From positions 1-37,658 of the forward strand of contig RPRQ01000043.1 of the NCBI GenBank assembly GCA_003818205.1: a DNA stretch of 37,658 nucleotides. The letters are read 5' to 3'. Shown here piece after piece: positions 3,715 to 37,116 of this stretch. The stretch comes from Bacteroidales bacterium. GTDB lineage: Bacteria > Bacteroidota > Bacteroidia > Bacteroidales > Tenuifilaceae. The notes below the pieces were generated by a model. That model saw only the letters and a list, made by a program, of their open reading frames with translations. It searched no databases and had not been told where the DNA came from. Each line of letters starts with the position of its first letter. Position 1 is the stretch's first letter. The translations under genes and the position numbers were made by a program.

Positions 3715-5490
3715 CTATGCATTCTTAAGATAATTAATCAATCCCTTCGCTTCAAATACTGCCAAAAGCTGCTGAGGTAATGGAGCAAACTTGAAAACCT
3801 TATCATTAATCTTAATTTCACCGTTTGCAAAATTAACATCAACCTTATCTCCCTGTTTGTAGTTATTTACCGCTTCGGGTACAACTAGGATTGGTAACCC
3901 TTGATTTACTGATGATCGATAGAAAATACGGTTCACCGATTTGCAGATTACTGCTTTTACACCAGCATGAGCTAATCCAACTGCAGGATGCTCGCGTGAG
4001 CTACCACATCCAAAGTTATCACCTGCAACAATGATATCGTTAGCCTTAACGTTTTCTGCAAATTGCTCATCGAAGCCCTTGAAAAGATGAGGCATAATAG
4101 CTGGTGGATCAGAACTTAATACGCTGTAAGTTAGATTTCCTGCAAACATCTGGTCGGTATTCAGATTGTCAGCATCAGCGTAATTCCATACTACTCCAAC
4201 TTTACGATTCTCGCCTTTTGGAATTGATACTGTTGTTCCAACCTGAACATTGGTAACAAACTTATCGTTGCCTTTTATTCCACGAGGATCGGTGATCTCA
4301 CCATGAATGGCTGAGAAGGCTACAGCAGCTGGACTTGCTAAGTAGATTGAGGCATTCTTATTACCCATCCTGCCCTTAAAGTTCCGGTTGGCTGTTGAGA
4401 TAACCGTATAACCATCAGCTGGGATACCTTGACCAGTTCCTAAACATGGGCCGCATGATGATGCAAGAATGGTTGCTCCAGCTTTCATCAATTTAGTAAT
4501 ATATCCTTCCTCAATAGCCTGCATGTAAATTTCCTTAGATGCAGGGATTACAAGGAGTTGGAAATCCTTCGCAATTTTTTTACCATCTAGAATTTCAGAA
4601 GCAATACGAATATCATCTAACCTACCGTTGGTACAAGTACCAATTACCGCTTGATTTAGCTTTGTTCCTTGAACCTCAGAGATTGCTTTTACATTCTCGG
4701 GGCTATGTGGTGCAGCAACCACAGGGAATATTTCGCTCAAGTTAATTTCCATAACCTTGTCGTAGTGAGCATCAGCATCAGCCCAAACGCCATTCATCTT
4801 ATCGGTGCCTAAATGCTTAGCTAGAACCTCATCAGCAGGGAAAACAGCATTCTTTGCACCCATCTCCGACGCAAGGTTAGTGATTGTCATTCTTTCCGAG
4901 ATGGATAGGTTTTTTACTCCTTCACCATGGTATTCAATCGACATATAGTTTGCGCCATCTGTACCAATTTTTCCAATGATCCAAAGACTTAAATCTTTGG
5001 CATAAACCCCTTTATTGAGTTTGCCAGTTAAGGTGATTTTCATCGATTCGGGTACACGAAACCATGTTTCACCCTTTTTCCATAGACCAGCCGATTCGGT
5101 TCGGTCGATACCTGCCGCCATGGCATTGAAAGCACCAGCAGTACTCGTGTGGCTATCGCTACCAACGATAATCATTCCTGGTTTTGCATAGTAGGACATG
5201 ATCTGGTGGCAAATGCCATCGCCTGCATCGTGAAACTTTTCTATTCCTTGCTCACGAGCAAATGTTCGAATGGAGCTATAGTCGTTGGCTAGCTTATCGT
5301 CAGTAGGAGGTGCATTGTGATCGAGGGTAATAAGTAATTGATTGGGATCAAATACCTTTTTGCCACCCATTTTCTCCCAAGTTTTACGTATACTAGCAGT
5401 GTTATCGTGGGTTAGCACGATATGCGGTTTGGCAAATACAATTGCTCCTGTTGGAGCACCAAATATTTTTTCTGCAAATGTTTTTCCCAT
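3715..5490 (-). CDS. Aconitase-superfamily hydro-lyase, fused large and small domains (paralogue 1)
   Basis: This 591-residue protein belongs to the isopropylmalate isomerase/homoaconitase branch of the aconitase superfamily. The LeuC-like and LeuD-like parts are joined in one chain, large domain first. The [4Fe-4S] cysteines are present: Cys286 in GTCTNG, and Cys346 and Cys349 in SSCGPCLG. The small domain carries DNFGCGSSREHP and FYRSSVNQGLPIL. By context with isocitrate dehydrogenase and citrate lyase, citrate-isocitrate isomerisation is the best guess, but homoaconitate, isopropylmalate or methylcitrate-type substrates cannot be excluded. I chose ATG at 5490 (MGKTFAEKIF), the family-typical start. 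A longer frame begins with TTG at 5502. The gene lies 109 bases after a second paralogue and ends at a terminator. Confidence 0.85.
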   Translation of the reverse strand: MGKTFAEKIFGAPTGAIVFAKPHIVLTHDNTASIRKTWEKMGGKKVFDPNQLLITLDHNAPPTDDKLANDYSSIRTFAREQGIEKFHDAGDGICHQIMSYYAKPGMIIVGSDSHTSTAGAFNAMAAGIDRTESAGLWKKGETWFRVPESMKITLTGKLNKGVYAKDLSLWIIGKIGTDGANYMSIEYHGEGVKNLSISERMTITNLASEMGAKNAVFPADEVLAKHLGTDKMNGVWADADAHYDKVMEINLSEIFPVVAAPHSPENVKAISEVQGTKLNQAVIGTCTNGRLDDIRIASEILDGKKIAKDFQLLVIPASKEIYMQAIEEGYITKLMKAGATILASSCGPCLGTGQGIPADGYTVISTANRNFKGRMGNKNASIYLASPAAVAFSAIHGEITDPRGIKGNDKFVTNVQVGTTVSIPKGENRKVGVVWNYADADNLNTDQMFAGNLTYSVLSSDPPAIMPHLFKGFDEQFAENVKANDIIVAGDNFGCGSSREHPAVGLAHAGVKAVICKSVNRIFYRSSVNQGLPILVVPEAVNNYKQGDKVDVNFANGEIKINDKVFKFAPLPQQLLAVFEAKGLINYLKNA

Positions 5491-5522
5491 ATATCTTATC
5501 AATTAAGTTTTAAATACAATGG

Positions 5523-5560
5523 AACACGGATAACACAGATTTTACGGATTAGCACGGATT
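5523..5560. repeat. Degenerate ACACGGAT-type tandem repeat
   Basis: Units resembling ACACGGAT/ACAGATT/ACGGATT are repeated three to four times between the two aconitase genes. A CTTTGCGCCTTAGCG motif follows (5571-5585), shared with the repeats near 3226, 33417 and 37171. Confidence 0.5.
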
Positions 5561-5599
5561 GATTTCTTTGCGCCTTAGCGTTTAATCTTTCAGTATTCC

Positions 5600-7405
5600 T
5601 TACAACAATCCTCCGTTACGGTAAATCTCAATCTGAACGTCAGTAAACTTATTGATATCGGCAGTTTTACTATTCTTCAAGTTAGTTACCTTACCGTTTG
5701 CCATATCAACTTTAATCTTATCGCCATCTTTAATATCAATGGATTCTAGTAAACCGGGTTTATAGGTGAGAATAGGAAAAGCTGCATTGATAGCATTCCT
5801 TTCGTAAATAGCACCGTACGATTCAGCAATAATACATGAAATACCAAGTGAAGCAAAGCAGTCAACAGCTTGTTGACGTGAGCTACCAGCACCAAAGTTT
5901 TTAGAGGTTATAACTATGTCGTTTGGCTGAGCCTTTTTTGCAAAATCCTCATAACCCTTCAGGTTATCGAACGCATATTGCCCCATCTCCTTAATATCGG
6001 TGATGGTAAGGTAGCGGTTATGGAAAATCATATCGGTATCGATATCATCCTTAATAATAACCCAAACGCGACCTTCAACAATAAGTGGCTTATCCTTTTG
6101 TGCCTCTTTTTTAACACCAAGTTTAAATCCGGAAACTTCTGGTTTTACAAACTCGGTTGGTTTTAAAGGAATCTCATCAGGTGTAGTAATATAACCTGCT
6201 ACTGCAGATGCGGCTACAATACTAGGTGATGCTAGGTAAACAAAACCGCTTCCCTGTTTCCCTTCAAAGTTACGGTTACCTGTGCTAATAGTTACCTCTT
6301 TAGGTCCATTCTGGCCAACCTGACCTGCAGCGCAACCAGCGCAACCAGCATTTGATACCATAGCACCAGCATCTTTAAAGATTTGGATTAAACCCTCGTC
6401 CATTGCCTGATTCCAAATAGGGTCTGTTGCAGGTACAATTTTAAGAACTACTCCAGGTGCAACTTTTCTTCCTTTTAGTATTTTAGCGGCTTCTCTCAAA
6501 TCCTCCATACGACCATTGGTGCAGCTGCCGATAAAGGCAGAATCAATCTTCTTACCCTTTTCATTTGCAACGCTAGAATTATCGTGAGGCTTACCTGGAC
6601 GAGCAAGCATAGGAACAAAACTGCTAATATCTATCTCCTTAATATCCTCGTATTTGGCGTTATCATCGGCTTTGAAAAACTCCAACTTTTTGCCAGTCTT
6701 CTTTTCGCAGAAATCGTGAATGGCCTTGCTAGGGGGGAATAGGAATATAATAGCGCCCATTTCAGTTGCCATTGAAGCGATGGTGATGCGCTCATCGAGG
6801 GTTAGCTCATCAATGGCATCGCCATAAAACTCAACGGATAGACCAAGGAGTTTATTAGCGCCAAAAATCTTTAGTAGATTTAGCGTTATGTCCTTAGCTG
6901 AGACATTTGCAGGACGTTTTCCTTTAAATACAAGTTTCACTGATTGTGGAACCTTAAACCATAGCGATCCTTTTGCCCAAGCGGCAGCGATGTCCTGATC
7001 GCCCATTCCCTGTCCGAACGATCCAATAGCACCCATGATGTTGGCATGAGAATCGGTGCTAACAAAAGTGCTACCAGGCCAGGCAAGACCACCATCAATG
7101 GCAAGGTGAGTTCCAATTCCAGCATCGATATCAAATACTTTGATACCATTCTCCCTTGCGTACATTCGGCAGTACTGCTGGTTTGCAGCATACTTCTGAT
7201 CCGAACCCGTAGGATTACAATCGAAGGTAAAAAAGGTGCGGGTAGGATCGTTAACGGTTAAACCGTTATTTACGAGATTTTTAACCACATTGGCTCCGCC
7301 AAAATCACGAGCCGCACGGGTGTCAATAAGAATATCGACAATTTCATCGGCGCAAACAATGTCCTTGTTGCTATGATTGGCAATTATTTTCTCTATTAAG
7401 TTCAT
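5600..7405 (-). CDS. Aconitase-superfamily hydro-lyase, fused large and small domains (paralogue 2)
   Basis: A second 601-residue fused LeuC-LeuD type enzyme, clearly diverged from its neighbour. Iron-sulphur ligands are Cys295 (GSCTNG), Cys355 and Cys358 (NAGCAGCAAG). VSTDSHAN lies near residue 116 and GMGDQDIA near 133. The small domain has DDIDTDMIFHNRYL near residue 453 and NFGAGSSRQQAVDCF near 503, where its neighbour has NFGCGSSREHP. The GSSRQQ version is closer, as I recall it, to homoaconitase-like small domains. The two paralogues therefore probably act on different acids, or one is the main aconitase and the other specialised. The gene lies between the HD protein and paralogue 1, all leftward. 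Confidence 0.83.
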   Translation of the reverse strand: MNLIEKIIANHSNKDIVCADEIVDILIDTRAARDFGGANVVKNLVNNGLTVNDPTRTFFTFDCNPTGSDQKYAANQQYCRMYARENGIKVFDIDAGIGTHLAIDGGLAWPGSTFVSTDSHANIMGAIGSFGQGMGDQDIAAAWAKGSLWFKVPQSVKLVFKGKRPANVSAKDITLNLLKIFGANKLLGLSVEFYGDAIDELTLDERITIASMATEMGAIIFLFPPSKAIHDFCEKKTGKKLEFFKADDNAKYEDIKEIDISSFVPMLARPGKPHDNSSVANEKGKKIDSAFIGSCTNGRMEDLREAAKILKGRKVAPGVVLKIVPATDPIWNQAMDEGLIQIFKDAGAMVSNAGCAGCAAGQVGQNGPKEVTISTGNRNFEGKQGSGFVYLASPSIVAASAVAGYITTPDEIPLKPTEFVKPEVSGFKLGVKKEAQKDKPLIVEGRVWVIIKDDIDTDMIFHNRYLTITDIKEMGQYAFDNLKGYEDFAKKAQPNDIVITSKNFGAGSSRQQAVDCFASLGISCIIAESYGAIYERNAINAAFPILTYKPGLLESIDIKDGDKIKVDMANGKVTNLKNSKTADINKFTDVQIEIYRNGGLL

Positions 7406-31401: not shown

Positions 31402-32241
31402 ATGGATCATAAAATTAGGTTAACCGAAAACTTTTTTGCTTTAAATGGAGCAATTAAACCCATTGAGGATTTTCAATACCAATTCCCAGAAAATGCTCCA
31501 ATTGTTTATGAAGTTATAAGGGTTAAAAAATCTACCCCATTATTTTTTAATCACCATATCGATAGATTAATTAACTCTACAGCTTTGCTTAGCCTTGAAA
31601 TTATTGATAAGCAATCTATTCGAAAACAAATAATTGAATTACTCGAAGCAAATCCAATAGAAGAAAACAATATCCGCATCTCACTGGTTTATAGCACTCC
31701 TACTACATTCGACATCTTGATTTATTTCATTCCGAGCAGCTATCCAACCCAACAGCAAAGGGAGAATGGTGTAACGCTAAGAACATTGAATGCCAATCGC
31801 AATAATCCTAACGCTAAGGTTGAAAACTCTACCCTTAGAGAATTAGCTGATAAAATAATAAGCGAATCTGGTTGCTACGAAGTACTGCTTGTTGATAGCA
31901 ATGGATTAATTACAGAGGGGAGTCGTTCAAATATATTCTTAATCAAAGACAACACCCTTTACACCCCGCCATTGAATATGGTGCTTGGGGGTATTACCCG
32001 ACAGGTAGTATTAAATATCTCAGCGAGTCTGAAAATTTTGTTGAAAGAAGAGCCTCTACCTGTTGACAGGTTAACTGAATTCGATTGCGCATTCTTAACC
32101 GGCACATCACCTGGGCTATTACCAATATCTTTAATTGACAATAATAAATTTAACACTATTAACCTTATTCTTTTTCAGCTAATTAACGAATACAATAATG
32201 CCATTGCAATGGACATCGCTAACTTAAAAAAGATACTATGA
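31402..32241 (+). CDS. Class IV (fold-type IV) PLP aminotransferase
   Basis: A 279-residue enzyme of the branched-chain aminotransferase/aminodeoxychorismate lyase family. The PLP lysine is in NAKVENSTL. The cofactor and substrate loop EVLLVDSNGLITEGSRSNIF and the ending PPLNMVLGGITR are typical. YEVIRVKKSTPLFFNHHIDR is the N-terminal substrate segment. The stop overlaps the next gene as ATGA, and that gene is an omega-amidase-like hydrolase. The pairing suggests an aminotransferase that uses glutamine or asparagine as amino donor, with the amidase pulling the reaction by hydrolysing the ketoamide. This is known from methionine salvage. A branched-chain or 4-amino-4-deoxychorismate role remains possible. 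Confidence 0.83.
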   Translation: MDHKIRLTENFFALNGAIKPIEDFQYQFPENAPIVYEVIRVKKSTPLFFNHHIDRLINSTALLSLEIIDKQSIRKQIIELLEANPIEENNIRISLVYSTPTTFDILIYFIPSSYPTQQQRENGVTLRTLNANRNNPNAKVENSTLRELADKIISESGCYEVLLVDSNGLITEGSRSNIFLIKDNTLYTPPLNMVLGGITRQVVLNISASLKILLKEEPLPVDRLTEFDCAFLTGTSPGLLPISLIDNNKFNTINLILFQLINEYNNAIAMDIANLKKIL

Positions 32242-33005
32242 ATATCTCAATCATTCAAACCGACCTATACTGGGAATTGCCATCGAAAAATCGGGAGATG
32301 TTCGATGAAAAGATAAGCACCCTGGAGAACAATGTTGATTTAATTGTTCTACCTGAAATGTTCAGCACAGGTTTCTCTATGCTCCCTGAGAACTTGGCAG
32401 AGAAATGGCCTGGACCAACGGTAAAATGGATGCAAAGGGTAGCAACCTCAAAAAAGGTTGCATTGGCAGGTAGTTTAATTGTTGAGGATTCAGGAAAGTA
32501 TTATAATCGCCTAGTTTTTGTCCACCCCGATGGAAGAATTGAGCATTACGACAAGCGACATCTTTTCCGCATGGCAGAGGAGCATAATCAGTACCATCCA
32601 GGAGATAAACGCATTGTTATTAACTATAAAGGTTTTAGAATACTTCTTTTGGTTTGCTATGATCTTCGCTTTCCTGTTTGGAGCCGAAACCGCAATGATT
32701 ACGATATGATTCTAATCGTTGCTAATTTCCCCGAAAAACGTAGTGCCGTATGGAACACATTACTATCTGCCCGCGCAATAGAGAACCTTTGTTACGTGGT
32801 GGCCTGTAATCGGGTTGGGAAAGATGGAGGCGGTTTTAGTTATTCTGGCGATTCCCAAATTATTGACCCCAAAGGTAAAACTATTACCCTTGCAAACCGC
32901 AATGAAAATCAGATTATTTCCGCAAATATAGATTTACAAGAGGTAATCAACTTCCGTAATTCATTCCCAGCTCACCTTGATGCTGATGAGTTTGAAATCA
33001 AGTAG
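32238..33005 (+). CDS. Carbon-nitrogen hydrolase, omega-amidase (YafV/Nit2)-like
   Basis: A 255-residue nitrilase-superfamily amidase. The catalytic triad is visible: Glu in LPEMFSTGFSM, Lys in YDKRHLFRM, and Cys in LLLVCYDLRFPVWSRN. The family hydrolyses 2-oxoglutaramate or 2-oxosuccinamate to the keto acid and ammonia. The ATG overlaps the aminotransferase stop by 4 bases, so they are coupled. The 3' end of this gene (32943-33005) has a diverged second copy at 37054-37116, beyond the corrinoid operon. Confidence 0.88.
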   Translation: MNISIIQTDLYWELPSKNREMFDEKISTLENNVDLIVLPEMFSTGFSMLPENLAEKWPGPTVKWMQRVATSKKVALAGSLIVEDSGKYYNRLVFVHPDGRIEHYDKRHLFRMAEEHNQYHPGDKRIVINYKGFRILLLVCYDLRFPVWSRNRNDYDMILIVANFPEKRSAVWNTLLSARAIENLCYVVACNRVGKDGGGFSYSGDSQIIDPKGKTITLANRNENQIISANIDLQEVINFRNSFPAHLDADEFEIK

Positions 33006-33499: not shown

Positions 33500-34138
33500 A
33501 TGGATAAATTTAAATTTATTATAAATGATTTAGAAAGAGCATTATTGACCATGAATCACGAAAAAGCTGAGAGCATAGTCATAAATGCAACATCTATAAG
33601 TTCACCTATTGAAATTGCAAGTGAATTAATTTCGCAAGTTTTACAAAAAATTGGAGAAGCTTGGGAAGAGGGTAAATTAGCTTTATCGCAGGTTTACATG
33701 AGTGGGGTTATTTGCGAAGAGATAATTGAGAAAATCCTCCCCCCTTCAGATCCAAATAGGAAAAACCAACCTAAAATGGCAATTGCTGTGTTTGAAGATT
33801 ACCATCTCTTAGGGAAACGTATAATCTATTCAACACTTCGCGCCAGTGGATTTGAGCTGACTGATCTTGGAGGTGGATTAACCTCCGAAAACTTAGTCGG
33901 CATTATAAAAAAAGAAAAAATAAAAATTCTTCTGCTTTCAGTACTGATGCTGCCTTCTGCTTTACGTATCAAGGAGTTAAAAAGTAAACTATCGGATTCC
34001 GATGTTAAGATTATTGTTGGAGGTGCTCCATTCCGCTTCGACAATAACCTATGGAAAGAGGTGGGTGCTGATGGATATGGCAAAGATTCCTCAGAGGCAT
34101 TAGAAATAGTAAATAAACTAATGGAGGGAAGTGTATGA
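33500..34138 (+). CDS. Corrinoid (B12)-binding protein, MtaC/MtbC-like
   Basis: A 212-residue cytoplasmic protein. Residues 1-85 form the four-helix cap (B12-binding-2) with IGEAWEEGKLALSQVYMSG. Residues 92-212 form the Rossmann-like cobalamin domain with all key motifs: Asp100-x-His102-xx-Gly105 (DYHLLGK), where His102 would be the lower cobalt ligand, Ser147-Val-Leu149, and GG at 174-175 (VGGAPF). The length equals that of corrinoid proteins which carry a methyl group between two methyltransferases in methylamine, methanol and O-demethylation systems. It is the first gene of a three-gene operon and overlaps the next gene as ATGA. No MtaB/MttB-type methyl-donor transferase is adjacent. Confidence 0.9.
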   Translation: MDKFKFIINDLERALLTMNHEKAESIVINATSISSPIEIASELISQVLQKIGEAWEEGKLALSQVYMSGVICEEIIEKILPPSDPNRKNQPKMAIAVFEDYHLLGKRIIYSTLRASGFELTDLGGGLTSENLVGIIKKEKIKILLLSVLMLPSALRIKELKSKLSDSDVKIIVGGAPFRFDNNLWKEVGADGYGKDSSEALEIVNKLMEGSV

Positions 34139-35187
34139 AAACCAAAGATATGACATCAATGGAGAGAGTGCTCACAACCCTTTCACATAAAGAGCCGGAT
34201 AGAGTTCCCCTTTTCCTTCTAGCAACAATGCATGGAGCAAAAGAGCTCGGAATGAGTATTAAGGACTATTTTGCCAAAGGAGAGAATGTGGCCGAAGGCC
34301 AACTACGAATAAACAGTAAATACCATACCGATTGTCTTTACCCTTTCTTTTATGCACCTCTTGAAACCGAAGCCTTTGGTGGAGATGTTATTTTCACAGA
34401 CGATGGTCCGCCAAACTCAGGTATTCCGTTAATAAAGGACATTGAAAAAATTAATTGTTTACAAGCACCAAAAGTAAAAGACACCAAAGTACTTCATAAA
34501 GTTTTAAAATCCATTCAGCTGCTAAAAGAAAAAGCAAAAGGTGAAACTCCAATTATTGGAGTGGTTATGTCTCCTTTTTCTCTACCCGTTTTACAGCTAG
34601 GATTCGAAAAGTATTTGGATATTATACACTTTCGCAAAGATATGTTTAATCATCTAATGCAGGTAAACCAAGAGTTTTGTATTGATTGGGCAAATGCACA
34701 ACTTGAAGCTGGTGCAACCGCTATTTGTTATTTTGATCCTGTTTCATCGTCAACGATTATTCCAAGAGAATTATACCTTGAAACAGGTCTCCAGATTGCT
34801 AAACAAACCATTGCCCAAATAAAAGGACCTACTGCAACGCACTTTGCATCTGGCAATTGCTTGCCAATCTCAGATTTGGTTTCTCAAACAGGAACAGCCG
34901 TTGTTGGAGTTAGCTCAAATGAAGACATTGGAGTAATAAAAAATGCATTTAAAGACAAGTTAACCGTTTTGGGCAACCTTAACGGCGTTGAAATGCGAAG
35001 GTGGACACGGGAAGAAACCCATAGAATTGTTCGCGATATTATTCAAAAAGCAGCACCTAGCGGAGGTTTTATTTTATCAGATAATCATGGAGAAATACCT
35101 TTTCAAGTTCCTGATGAGGTACTACTTACTATTTCCGAAACAGTGCAAACGTTTGGAGTCTATCCTATTACTAAGAAACAGCAATGA
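34135..35187 (+). CDS. UroD-family methyltransferase-like protein (MtaA/MtbA branch) with altered zinc site
   Basis: A 350-residue TIM-barrel protein of the uroporphyrinogen decarboxylase superfamily. Starting MTSMERVLTTLSHKEPDRVP and the linkage to a corrinoid protein place it with corrinoid-dependent methyltransferases, not haem biosynthesis. MtaA/MtbA bind zinc by His-x-Cys and a distant Cys. Here the first site reads His236-Phe-Ala238 (THFASGNC), and the second segment reads LSDNHGEIP with His318 where a Cys is expected. Only Cys242 is near. Either another ligand set binds zinc, or the enzyme does not activate a thiol. It overlaps both neighbours as ATGA and so is made in step with the corrinoid protein and the kinase. 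Confidence 0.85.
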   Translation: MKTKDMTSMERVLTTLSHKEPDRVPLFLLATMHGAKELGMSIKDYFAKGENVAEGQLRINSKYHTDCLYPFFYAPLETEAFGGDVIFTDDGPPNSGIPLIKDIEKINCLQAPKVKDTKVLHKVLKSIQLLKEKAKGETPIIGVVMSPFSLPVLQLGFEKYLDIIHFRKDMFNHLMQVNQEFCIDWANAQLEAGATAICYFDPVSSSTIIPRELYLETGLQIAKQTIAQIKGPTATHFASGNCLPISDLVSQTGTAVVGVSSNEDIGVIKNAFKDKLTVLGNLNGVEMRRWTREETHRIVRDIIQKAAPSGGFILSDNHGEIPFQVPDEVLLTISETVQTFGVYPITKKQQ

Positions 35188-36941
35188 CAGATAAACTATG
35201 TATATTCGTTTGCAACTCATTAGTAGCTGAAGTAAGTCATATTATTCAAACTGGTAATTATCCAGATGTTAAACTCATGACTTACAACTCATCATGTGGC
35301 AGAAGGCCTGATAAAGATAAAATACTTCCAGATTTAACTTCAGATGAATTAAACCAGTATTCAAGGGTTTTATTCTTTGGAGGTTTGTGTCAAAAAAGAT
35401 TTAAAGAAGAGATTCCTCAAAATAGAAAGATTGAGTTTATTAACTTCGAACAATGCTTCGAGCTAATCCTTAACAAGGAAAGCATATATCATTTCATTAA
35501 ACAGGGGGATTATCTTGTTTCAAACGGTTGGTTAAGAAATTATAAGCAGCATATTGTAGATTGGGGCTTTGATGAGAAATCGTCGAAGATTTTCTTTAAT
35601 GAATCATTAAAAAAAATACTATTTCTTGATACGGGGATAAGCGGTGATTTTAAGCCGAATTTAATAGCCCTCTCAGAATACATGGGCTTACCTTATGAAG
35701 TCTTTCCGGTAGGTTTATCGCATTGTATTAACTTTCTTGATGCGCAAGTTTCAAAATGGAGAGTTGATGTTGAGCGAAATAGCATAAACGAAAAACTTTC
35801 AGCAATTACAAAAGAGAGTGCGGATTATTTAATCATTTTCAAACATCTTCAAAATCTTGTTGATATTATTGAAGAATCACTAATAGTAAAAGAAGTATTA
35901 TGGTTATTAAACCTTCTTTTTGCACCATACCAGATTGGATTTCAGAATTATTTCAATGGGGCTGAAGGCAATATTATTTGGTTAAATAGTTATAATATAG
36001 ATACTAAAATAAACCAGAATGATTTCTTTTCCATTGAAATAACTCATCAAAATGAAACACTTGGTGTATTTAAAATTTATGGCGTTAAGTTTCCAGAATA
36101 TATTGAACAATACAAAAGGATATGGCCTGTTATCAGCAAGATTTGTGGATTATCCATAGCAAATGCAAGAAAATATAAAATAACTCAGGATCAAAAGGAA
36201 CAGTTACAACACAAATCCCAAGTGTTAATTGAACTAATGCTGTCAAAAGACAAACTGCTTTCTATTATCGCTCATGATTTAAAAGGTCCGTTTAACGTAC
36301 TTTTAGGCTATTCCGAACTTCTAGTTGAAAACCATCGAATTTATAATGTTGATAAAACTCAACATATTATTGAAAGTTTACATTCAACAACTGTGCAAAC
36401 TTTAAAATTATTGGAGAACTTATTAGACTGGGCACGCAGTCAACAGAACGGAATAACTTTTAATCCTATTAAAACCGACTTGATTCTTGTTGTAAATACA
36501 ATAGTTGAACTATTAAATCCGATAGCAAGGGCTAAAAATATATCTCTGATAATGGATATAAAAACTCCATGTTTTGTTTTAGCTGATATATACATGATAA
36601 ATGCAGTGTTACGAAACTTAATCAGCAACGCAATAAAGTTTACTCAAAAAGGCGGCAGTATTAAAATAGAAACAAAAGACCAGGACTCAATGGTTCATGT
36701 ATCAGTATCCGATAATGGTATTGGAATTAAGCCTGATGACATTGCTAAACTATTTCGAATCGATACAAATATAAACCAACTAGGCACTTCTGGAGAAAAA
36801 GGAACTGGTCTAGGGTTACTTTTGTGTAAAGAATTTGTTGAAAAACATGGAGGGAAAATTTGGGTTGAAAGCGAGGTAGGCAATGGGAGCAAATTTATTT
36901 TTTCGTTAAATAAAACCCGAGATTTCCAAGAAGAGCAATAG
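35184..36941 (+). CDS. DUF1638-histidine kinase fusion
   Basis: A 585-residue soluble sensor kinase with no membrane segment. Residues 1 to about 195 look like DUF1638, a domain seen beside corrinoid methyltransferases: FFGGLCQ (Cys69), FINFEQCFELILNKESIYHF (Cys91), YLVSNGWLRNY, LFLDTGISG and LSHCINFLD (Cys181). Residues about 205-330 are a GAF-like or other sensory region. A short coil leads to the kinase: His364 in IIAHDLKGPFN, Asn478/Asn482 (NLISNAIKF), DNGIGI and GTGLGLLL. There is no receiver domain and no response regulator nearby, so its target is elsewhere. Fusion and ATGA coupling to the methyltransferase suggest it reads the methylation, redox or ligand state of the corrinoid pair. 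Confidence 0.85.
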   Translation: MTDKLCIFVCNSLVAEVSHIIQTGNYPDVKLMTYNSSCGRRPDKDKILPDLTSDELNQYSRVLFFGGLCQKRFKEEIPQNRKIEFINFEQCFELILNKESIYHFIKQGDYLVSNGWLRNYKQHIVDWGFDEKSSKIFFNESLKKILFLDTGISGDFKPNLIALSEYMGLPYEVFPVGLSHCINFLDAQVSKWRVDVERNSINEKLSAITKESADYLIIFKHLQNLVDIIEESLIVKEVLWLLNLLFAPYQIGFQNYFNGAEGNIIWLNSYNIDTKINQNDFFSIEITHQNETLGVFKIYGVKFPEYIEQYKRIWPVISKICGLSIANARKYKITQDQKEQLQHKSQVLIELMLSKDKLLSIIAHDLKGPFNVLLGYSELLVENHRIYNVDKTQHIIESLHSTTVQTLKLLENLLDWARSQQNGITFNPIKTDLILVVNTIVELLNPIARAKNISLIMDIKTPCFVLADIYMINAVLRNLISNAIKFTQKGGSIKIETKDQDSMVHVSVSDNGIGIKPDDIAKLFRIDTNINQLGTSGEKGTGLGLLLCKEFVEKHGGKIWVESEVGNGSKFIFSLNKTRDFQEEQ

Positions 36942-37021: not shown

Positions 37022-37116
37022 AGACTATTACAGAAATCATCTCTATTCAACATGTTACTAGTTTTCGTAACTCATTCCCAGCCTATCTCGATGCGGATGA
37101 GTTTAATATCAAGTAA
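37022..37116 (+). pseudogene. 3' remnant of a second omega-amidase gene
   Basis: The 63 bases 37054-37116 match the last 63 bases of the amidase gene (32943-33005) at 48 positions by my count. They encode FRNSFPAYLDADEFNIK and a stop, against FRNSFPAHLDADEFEIK. Weaker similarity extends upstream (ACTATTAC near 37024 against 32880) with apparent deletions. Most changes are at third codon positions, so the copy diverged while still coding and decayed later. No start or catalytic residues remain. Confidence 0.8.

Follow-up and report, generated by a model that had tools for sequence, protein, structure and literature searches.

What does a pair of corrinoid and UroD-superfamily proteins do when the gene that follows it encodes a histidine kinase? 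The question is raised by a 37,658-base stretch of DNA, hereafter the window, which is one whole contig (RPRQ01000043.1) of a Bacteroidales bacterium of the family Tenuifilaceae (assembly GCA_003818205.1; host genome 5.17 Mb, 98.98% complete). Ending 717 bases before the contig does, three consecutive genes joined by two 4-base ATGA overlaps encode a B12-binding protein, a UroD-superfamily protein and a soluble kinase that starts with a DUF1638 domain. This arrangement, recognized in an initial annotation made from the sequence alone, is correct according to the open reading frames (ORFs) and to Pfam, where each of the three proteins matches above the curated cut-off of its family. Corrinoid methyltransferases are usually regarded as enzymes of one-carbon metabolism. 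The initial annotation suggested instead that the three genes form a sensor, and the signalling output is well supported by comparative genomics because the gene order is fixed, the outputs are exchangeable, no enzyme partner is conserved and no activase is matched in the host. Overall the suggestion is partly supported. Judged from these comparisons the module very probably has a signalling role. The complete proposal, that it is a corrinoid-based stand-alone input module for signal transduction working by the mechanism set out below, we consider reasonably probable.

Conservation of the module and exchange of its outputs

A search with the kinase in 148 genomes, its own included, gave one other full-span match among the matches listed, in a genome that has the same three genes in identical order. 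A contig scan with five UroD proteins of the window's clade gave 70 loci, of which 66 are genuine (L132-L135 were excluded, matching over 21-40 residues only), and all reading frames of these 66 were scored with profiles that drew on four or five genomes. In 64 of the 66 loci the UroD gene is immediately preceded by the corrinoid gene. The other two are L092, where the contig begins within the UroD gene, and L114, where the corrinoid gene belongs to the second UroD copy. Directly downstream, a DUF1638 and/or GAF-like domain is found in 62 loci; L092 and L112 are at contig ends, the second copy in L114 has both domains, and L127 (Chloroflexota) encodes a kinase with neither. Counted singly, DUF1638 was matched in 54 loci and the GAF-like domain in 56. 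The three-gene order that the initial annotation proposed to look for elsewhere thus recurs in the scanned loci, with these exceptions. Locus L114, from a Candidatus Electrothrix marina record, has two module UroD genes in tandem, separated by a corrinoid gene that is matched in two frames.

By record title or taxonomy label the loci come from Bacteroidota, Ignavibacteriota, Desulfobacterota, Nitrospirota, Nitrospinota, Chloroflexota, Pseudomonadota, Verrucomicrobiota, Riflebacteria, Bacillota and Spirochaetota, together with single Myxococcota and Thermoleophilia bins and two archaeal records, Methanospirillum and Methanocalculus. Records not marked as metagenome-assembled genomes (MAGs) include Desulfonema magnum (complete genome; L075) and Halanaerobium polyolivorans (L107). 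Within the order of Desulfonema 11 of 194 genomes match, Desulfonema itself among them. Ten loci were taken from that order, nine of them new (L204 and L089 share a contig). Each of the ten has a corrinoid gene upstream, and nine have a clear DUF1638 and/or GAF-like domain downstream; in the tenth, L209, the DUF1638 match is weak and truncated where the contig stops. The module is rare: in the window's phylum it was found in two genomes, the host's among them, out of 395, and in none of eight tested genomes of the same genus or family.

Outputs were tallied with Pfam on 54 third proteins, with a check on ten. These are 50 from the 66 scanned loci plus those of the window, L047, L048 and L051. 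Left out were proteins that are contig-cut, broken or DUF1638-only (L086, L087, L095, L100, L109, L117, L124), the stand-alone DUF1638 genes of L110 and L115, the broken L128, the already-seen contigs L069, L105 and L116, and L083, L092, L112, L113 and L127, where the third ORF was not picked. DUF1638 was found in 41 proteins, HATPase_c in 39, HisKA in 28, GGDEF in 9 and a receiver domain in 6. Kinase and GGDEF are both absent from six, in none of which did Pfam find an output domain: L077, L078, L080 and L084 carry a CxxCKxIR tail in the kinase's place, with further conserved Cys and His, and L081 and L120 are short. The initial annotation had counted homologues with an unlinked kinase gene as telling against a sensor. 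The linkage holds for the 39 of 54 proteins with HATPase_c and fails for the nine with GGDEF and the six with neither, so the kinase is common, not obligatory, and on balance this check favours the sensor. DUF1638 itself is a separate gene in L054, L110, L115 and L117.

When output labels were placed on a tree of 65 module UroD rows and three outgroup rows (51 labelled; 14 of the 65 module rows unlabelled), nine changes were needed, and well-supported branches force at least three label changes for the histidine kinase, two for GGDEF and two for the tail. Locus L097, for example, has GGDEF but shares a 100/98 branch with L106 and L113, which have kinases. Signalling proteins are also the sole widely recurrent kind among the neighbours of 64 loci, where they form one single-linkage cluster in 36 (a count that includes L127's own output); of 187 ORFs two to three genes away, 36 match a kinase profile, vs. 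3 of 122 at five or more. The next most frequent neighbour family occurs in 3 of 64 loci. Metabolic genes, a further methyltransferase or an activase included, thus show no recurrence around the 64 loci above this ceiling; of the families that could supply the conserved fourth gene for which the initial annotation had recommended a search, none outside signalling exceeds 3/64.

The three proteins and related settings of DUF1638

The corrinoid protein matches B12-binding_2 at 38.2 bits and B12-binding at 57.3 bits, and its sequence kin are the methylamine corrinoid proteins 3ezx and 7xcn. The cobalamin motif of methyltransferase cognate corrinoid proteins consists of DxHxxG, SxL and GG. All three elements, described as intact in the initial annotation, are present (D100xHxxG, S147xL, G174G), and they are retained in 61 of 61 module corrinoid proteins compared. 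The protein reaches 83.2 bits against TIGR02370 (cut-off 215.3) and the UroD protein 106.3 bits against TIGR01463, the MtaA/CmuA family (cut-off 235.4). As neither comes near the cut-off of any NCBIfam family listed for it, they are relatives and not members of known systems.

The UroD protein matches Pfam URO-D at 186.2 bits. The MtaA-type zinc site consists of HxC and a C-terminal Cys. Module rows were compared with the 4ay7 sequence and with UroD paralogues, and the zinc-site cysteines are absent from the module clade: in 67 rows the HxC position reads HFA in 28, HLA in 22, HMA in 11 and otherwise in 6, and C-terminal DNHGEIP is found in 61. Among 17 other UroD paralogues from module genomes, seven have CG in the first zinc place and the C-terminal Cys, which sits one column off in some alignment rows. 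Because the cysteines are missing, the module's UroD protein probably does not methylate a thiol as MtaA does, and the roles left open to it by its sequence are donor-side methyl transfer or pure ligand binding. The statement of the initial annotation that a substrate-specific donor methyltransferase is lacking is not shown to be right; the donor enzyme may be the UroD protein, since its superfamily includes the proposed donor methyltransferases CmuA and MecE (excerpts of PMC9768040). In all seven relatives compared it is the best-kept of the three proteins, with identities of 58-81%, vs. 45-77% for the corrinoid protein and 27-60% for the third protein, and 69 of its positions are kept at 94% or more over 72 rows, a few of which are near-copies. 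The UroD protein is therefore under constraint.

In a 63-row UroD tree the window's clade is separate (100/98), and adjoining it is a clade of its own (100/100) formed by the UroD proteins of a second form of the module; both stand apart from 11 paralogues, a placement to be read with caution because long branches meet at that point. DUF1638 occurs in 24 of 393 genomes of the window's taxonomic order, at 25 places, and the neighbourhood was examined at 20 of these, the window included. Corrinoid and UroD genes lie beside DUF1638 at 14 places and are absent at six. A DUF1638-kinase fusion is found at three of the 14, including the window; at one, UroD is fused to DUF1638 and a kinase comes next; seven have a separate kinase gene after DUF1638, and three have no kinase within reach (L049, L054 and L056, of which L049 and L056 are at contig ends). 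In the second UroD clade, from Bacteroidales, DUF1638 is separate or fused to UroD and a kinase is usually next; L054 (G153) belongs to the first clade, yet has DUF1638 as a separate gene. At L065, DUF1638 is accompanied by two MttB proteins and a RamA-like hydantoinase-family protein (Pfam), likely a methyl-transfer operon, and L063 resembles it by gene sizes and corrinoid match only.

The third protein matches DUF1638 (PF07796) at 45.1 bits against a cut-off of 27, HisKA at 38.1 and HATPase_c at 95.7. It has the H, N and G boxes of a histidine kinase: His364, named in the initial annotation, is the H-box, with the N-box at 478 and G-boxes at 510 and 540 (narrow N- and G-box patterns overlooked some of 12 relatives). 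An AlphaFold model of residues 1-345 (mean predicted local distance difference test score, pLDDT, 88; predicted template modelling score, pTM, 0.65) places DUF1638 first, then a long helix (179-226) and then a domain that Foldseek matches to GAF domains 5w10, 3lfv and 4g3k; Pfam does not detect a GAF domain in the window's kinase. This domain was overlooked in the initial annotation, as were the contig end and a duplicated end of a nitrilase-like gene beyond the kinase. Homology of the GAF-like domain to the N-terminal domain of the second clade's kinase is not claimed because the hhalign probability is 22%.

DUF1638 is modelled with confidence (pLDDT 92) and has no Foldseek match at E 0.001 or better. 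Searching solved structures by sequence gave only saposin and helical-bundle entries; four of these came close to E 0.001, and the matches were taken as chance. Its Cys10, Cys38, Cys69 and Cys91 are conserved in 51, 53, 48 and 49 of 54 rows. In the model each of them lies at the end of, or just after, one of the first four strands, which suggests a common metal site. Three of the four are also present in 9/9 second-form and 6/6 catabolic-type proteins (11 loci picked, six with a usable ORF), and the fourth place holds a Leu there, beside a His. An RNA-family scan of the window and seven module loci gave two matches, both tRNAs, and no B12 riboswitch or other RNA element at gathering score. Coordinates are collected in Table 1.

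Table 1 Features of the module and its surroundings, in positions of the window
Feature	Position	Strand	Remarks
Corrinoid protein gene	33500..34138	+	212 amino acids; helical cap and Rossmann B12-binding domain
DxHxxG cobalt-ligand motif, residues 100-105	33797..33814	+	conserved 61/61
SxL motif of corrinoid gene	33938-33946	+	S147xL
GG motif of corrinoid gene	34019-34024	+	G174G
UroD-superfamily methyltransferase-like gene	34135..35187	+	350 amino acids; module-specific clade
DUF1638-GAF-HisKA-HATPase soluble histidine kinase gene	35184..36941	+	585 amino acids
DUF1638 domain, residues 1-196	35184..35771	+	Pfam match over residues 56-181
GAF-fold domain, residues about 231-344	35874..36215	+	AlphaFold2 (AF2) model, Foldseek
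HisKA dimerisation/phosphoacceptor domain	36246..36446	+	Pfam; His364 codon 36273-36275
HATPase_c kinase domain	36597..36914	+	Pfam 95.7 bits
Degenerate copy of the 3' end (32952-33004) of the nitrilase-like gene	37063..37115	+	83% over 53 bases, blastn

A proposed mechanism and its alternatives

In the mechanism that we propose, the first gene product would be a corrinoid protein of the methyl-transfer type, and its UroD-type partner would bind a small molecule and set the corrinoid state, most likely by methylating or demethylating cobalt and possibly by binding alone. The DUF1638 domain, with its four-cysteine set, would dock on the corrinoid protein or on the UroD partner and read that state, and the long helix and GAF domain would relay the change to the output. 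In the window that output is a histidine kinase, whose presumed target is an unlinked response regulator; other lineages have a diguanylate cyclase in its place. We infer cobalamin loading, docking, a metal at the four cysteines, methyl transfer and the direction of the signal. What is read out is probably the methyl or redox state of cobalt; that true methyl transfer is the sensing event we put forward only tentatively. It is conceivable, if short of probable, that the module represents an undescribed and widely scattered receptor class of bacteria and archaea in which corrinoid methyl-transfer chemistry itself is the sensing event: the UroD enzyme would methylate a dedicated corrinoid protein, using a donor from the environment or from metabolism, and DUF1638-GAF would be the reader that converts the methyl or redox state of cobalt into kinase or cyclic-di-GMP signalling. 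If the proposal holds, a corrinoid-UroD pair serving as input to two-component or cyclic-di-GMP pathways is a new type of receptor, DUF1638 gains a role, that of a reader of corrinoid proteins or of their redox partner, and part of the UroD and corrinoid genes that are taken as markers of methylotrophy in metagenomes belong to sensors.

Several observations weigh against this proposal. DUF1638 is unmatched in nine of the 66 loci (L076, L077, L078, L080, L081, L092, L118, L125 and L127) despite more than 400 bases past the UroD gene, and is therefore dispensable there or diverged beyond the profile. No cognate response regulator was found, on a contig that ends so soon after the kinase. A few of the neighbouring kinase matches may be broken pieces of a third gene (L100) or the module's own output (L127), and most module hosts are MAGs. 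Of 35 module genomes, 20 contain RamA and may therefore link the module to metabolism, and in the host no activase was found that could re-reduce Co(II).

The strongest alternative, although a rather unlikely one, is a sensor of redox or B12 status that works without methyl transfer, with UroD as a non-catalytic scaffold or ligand binder and the DUF1638 cysteines sensing cobalt redox state, oxygen or corrinoid supply. It would account for a UroD protein without the MtaA zinc cysteines, for the conserved cysteines at the ends of successive DUF1638 strands and for the 15 of 35 module genomes, the host's included, in which RamA is unmatched, and it agrees with the genetic tie of DUF1638 to likely B12 reactivation (excerpts of PMC5764234). 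It explains less well that UroD is the most conserved protein in all seven relatives, which is beyond a scaffold's need.

We give little credence to a third possibility, a catabolic or biosynthetic corrinoid methyltransferase whose expression the kinase merely regulates. It has a precedent in the mec cluster, which unites a kinase, a corrinoid protein and UroD-superfamily proteins (excerpts of PMC9768040), and it can draw on the RamA-containing genomes and on L065, where DUF1638 lies beside MttB and a RamA-like protein. Against it stand the absence of any recurrent methyltransferase, activase or other metabolic gene beside the module, GGDEF in the kinase's place in 9 of 54 proteins, and the host genome. 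The RamA test covered the host and 34 of the 66 module loci, the completeness value being given for the host only. Neither RamA (PF14574) nor Hydantoinase_A, the family of the activase-like protein of L065, nor MTTB has a match in the host, where the MtaB and MtrH families were not searched. Four host proteins match B12-binding_2: a MetH with its own activation domain, the module's protein, a MerR-type CarH-like protein and a photoreceptor-like one, so that among these MetH is the only other corrinoid protein of methyl-transfer type. Given this set and the missing RamA, Hydantoinase_A and MTTB matches, there is no sign in the host that the module assists a catabolic corrinoid pathway. With no conserved enzyme neighbour either, the catabolic operon reading was rejected for this host.

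A B12 photoreceptor of the CarH kind coupled to the kinase is very improbable. Light-responsive cobalamin domains fused to diguanylate cyclase and other outputs are in print, with a light signature of GxxW and EH motifs in the cap (excerpts of PMC11796333), and the cap Trp is present in 59 of 61 module corrinoid proteins (gap in two). The EH pair, however, is found in none of the 59 readable rows, its position being VY in 49, IY in 8, LY in 1, MY in 1 and a gap in 2, and all 61 have DxHxxG, vs. EH together with ExHxxG in 7 of 10 comparison B12 proteins. On the absent EH pair the photoreceptor reading was rejected. The host's photoreceptor-like B12 protein, encoded at L136 (G000:C58; locus ORFs 4990-5637 and 6067-7269), has the EH pair and ExHxxG and is the second B12-binding protein of this genome to lie beside a kinase. 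The pair looks like a B12 photoreceptor encoded apart from its kinase, and the pairs of L141, L142 and L145 resemble it.

Chance neighbours or mobile cargo without joint function would fit the patchy and rare occurrence and the duplicated gene end that brackets the module, but order and coupling are kept across phyla, and this conservation already refutes the idea. In four of four same-genus genomes the nitrilase-like gene is directly followed by a sodium:solute symporter-type gene, without the module (Pfam on one). Because of this, and because a copied end of the nitrilase-like gene lies beyond the module with the original before it, the module appears to be a recent arrival in the host, as if inserted at the end of that gene. 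Upstream, an aminotransferase class IV gene (31402-32241) overlaps a carbon-nitrogen hydrolase gene (32238-33005) by 4 bases, a pair that is retained in same-genus genomes.

Comparison with known systems

In agreement with the initial annotation, which knew of no described system with this layout, no published description was recognized in openly licensed PubMed Central (PMC) full text. The layout in print that comes closest is catabolic: the mec cassette for dichloromethane degradation, with the kinase MecA, the corrinoid protein MecB and the UroD-superfamily proteins MecC, MecE and MecI (excerpts of PMC9768040). There too a kinase gene lies beside corrinoid and UroD-superfamily genes. The mec kinase, however, has a PocR sensor domain of its own where the module kinase has DUF1638-GAF, and the cassette holds a methyltransferase II (MTII) and serves catabolism, whereas the module has no recurrent enzyme neighbour: mec-type second methyltransferase or catabolic genes do not recur (ceiling 3/64), the window's contig itself ending 717 bases downstream. 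With MtaA, MtbA and CmuA and their MtaC/MtbC-type proteins the module shares protein families and the corrinoid-UroD pairing, but its proteins are far under the family cut-offs and its UroD lacks the zinc cysteines.

To our knowledge, no corrinoid-UroD-DUF1638 operon is known for MsmS and RdmS, sensor kinases of Methanosarcina acetivorans. These resemble the module's kinase in being associated with methyltransferases, and a reference title in the excerpted PMC11619418 names heme-binding GAF domains; they differ in that they are proposed to sense via heme or thiols themselves. The Phaeobacter inhibens DUF1638 protein PGA1_c13340 is encoded next to a B12-binding protein (split methionine synthase), is required for methionine synthesis and tracks a RamA-like protein, no specific function being proposed for it by the authors in the excerpted text (PMC5764234). 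It is a separate protein, and the excerpted account of it, unlike the module, involves no mention of a kinase. A marine betaine study groups DUF1638 with predicted cobalamin recharging (excerpts of PMC12478193).

CarH and the photocobilins share with the module the use of a cobalamin domain in signalling with exchangeable outputs (excerpts of PMC11796333). The module differs from them in having no EH pair and in keeping its cobalamin protein as a separate subunit with a UroD partner. Its novelty would lie in the kind of input; the signalling outputs are ordinary.

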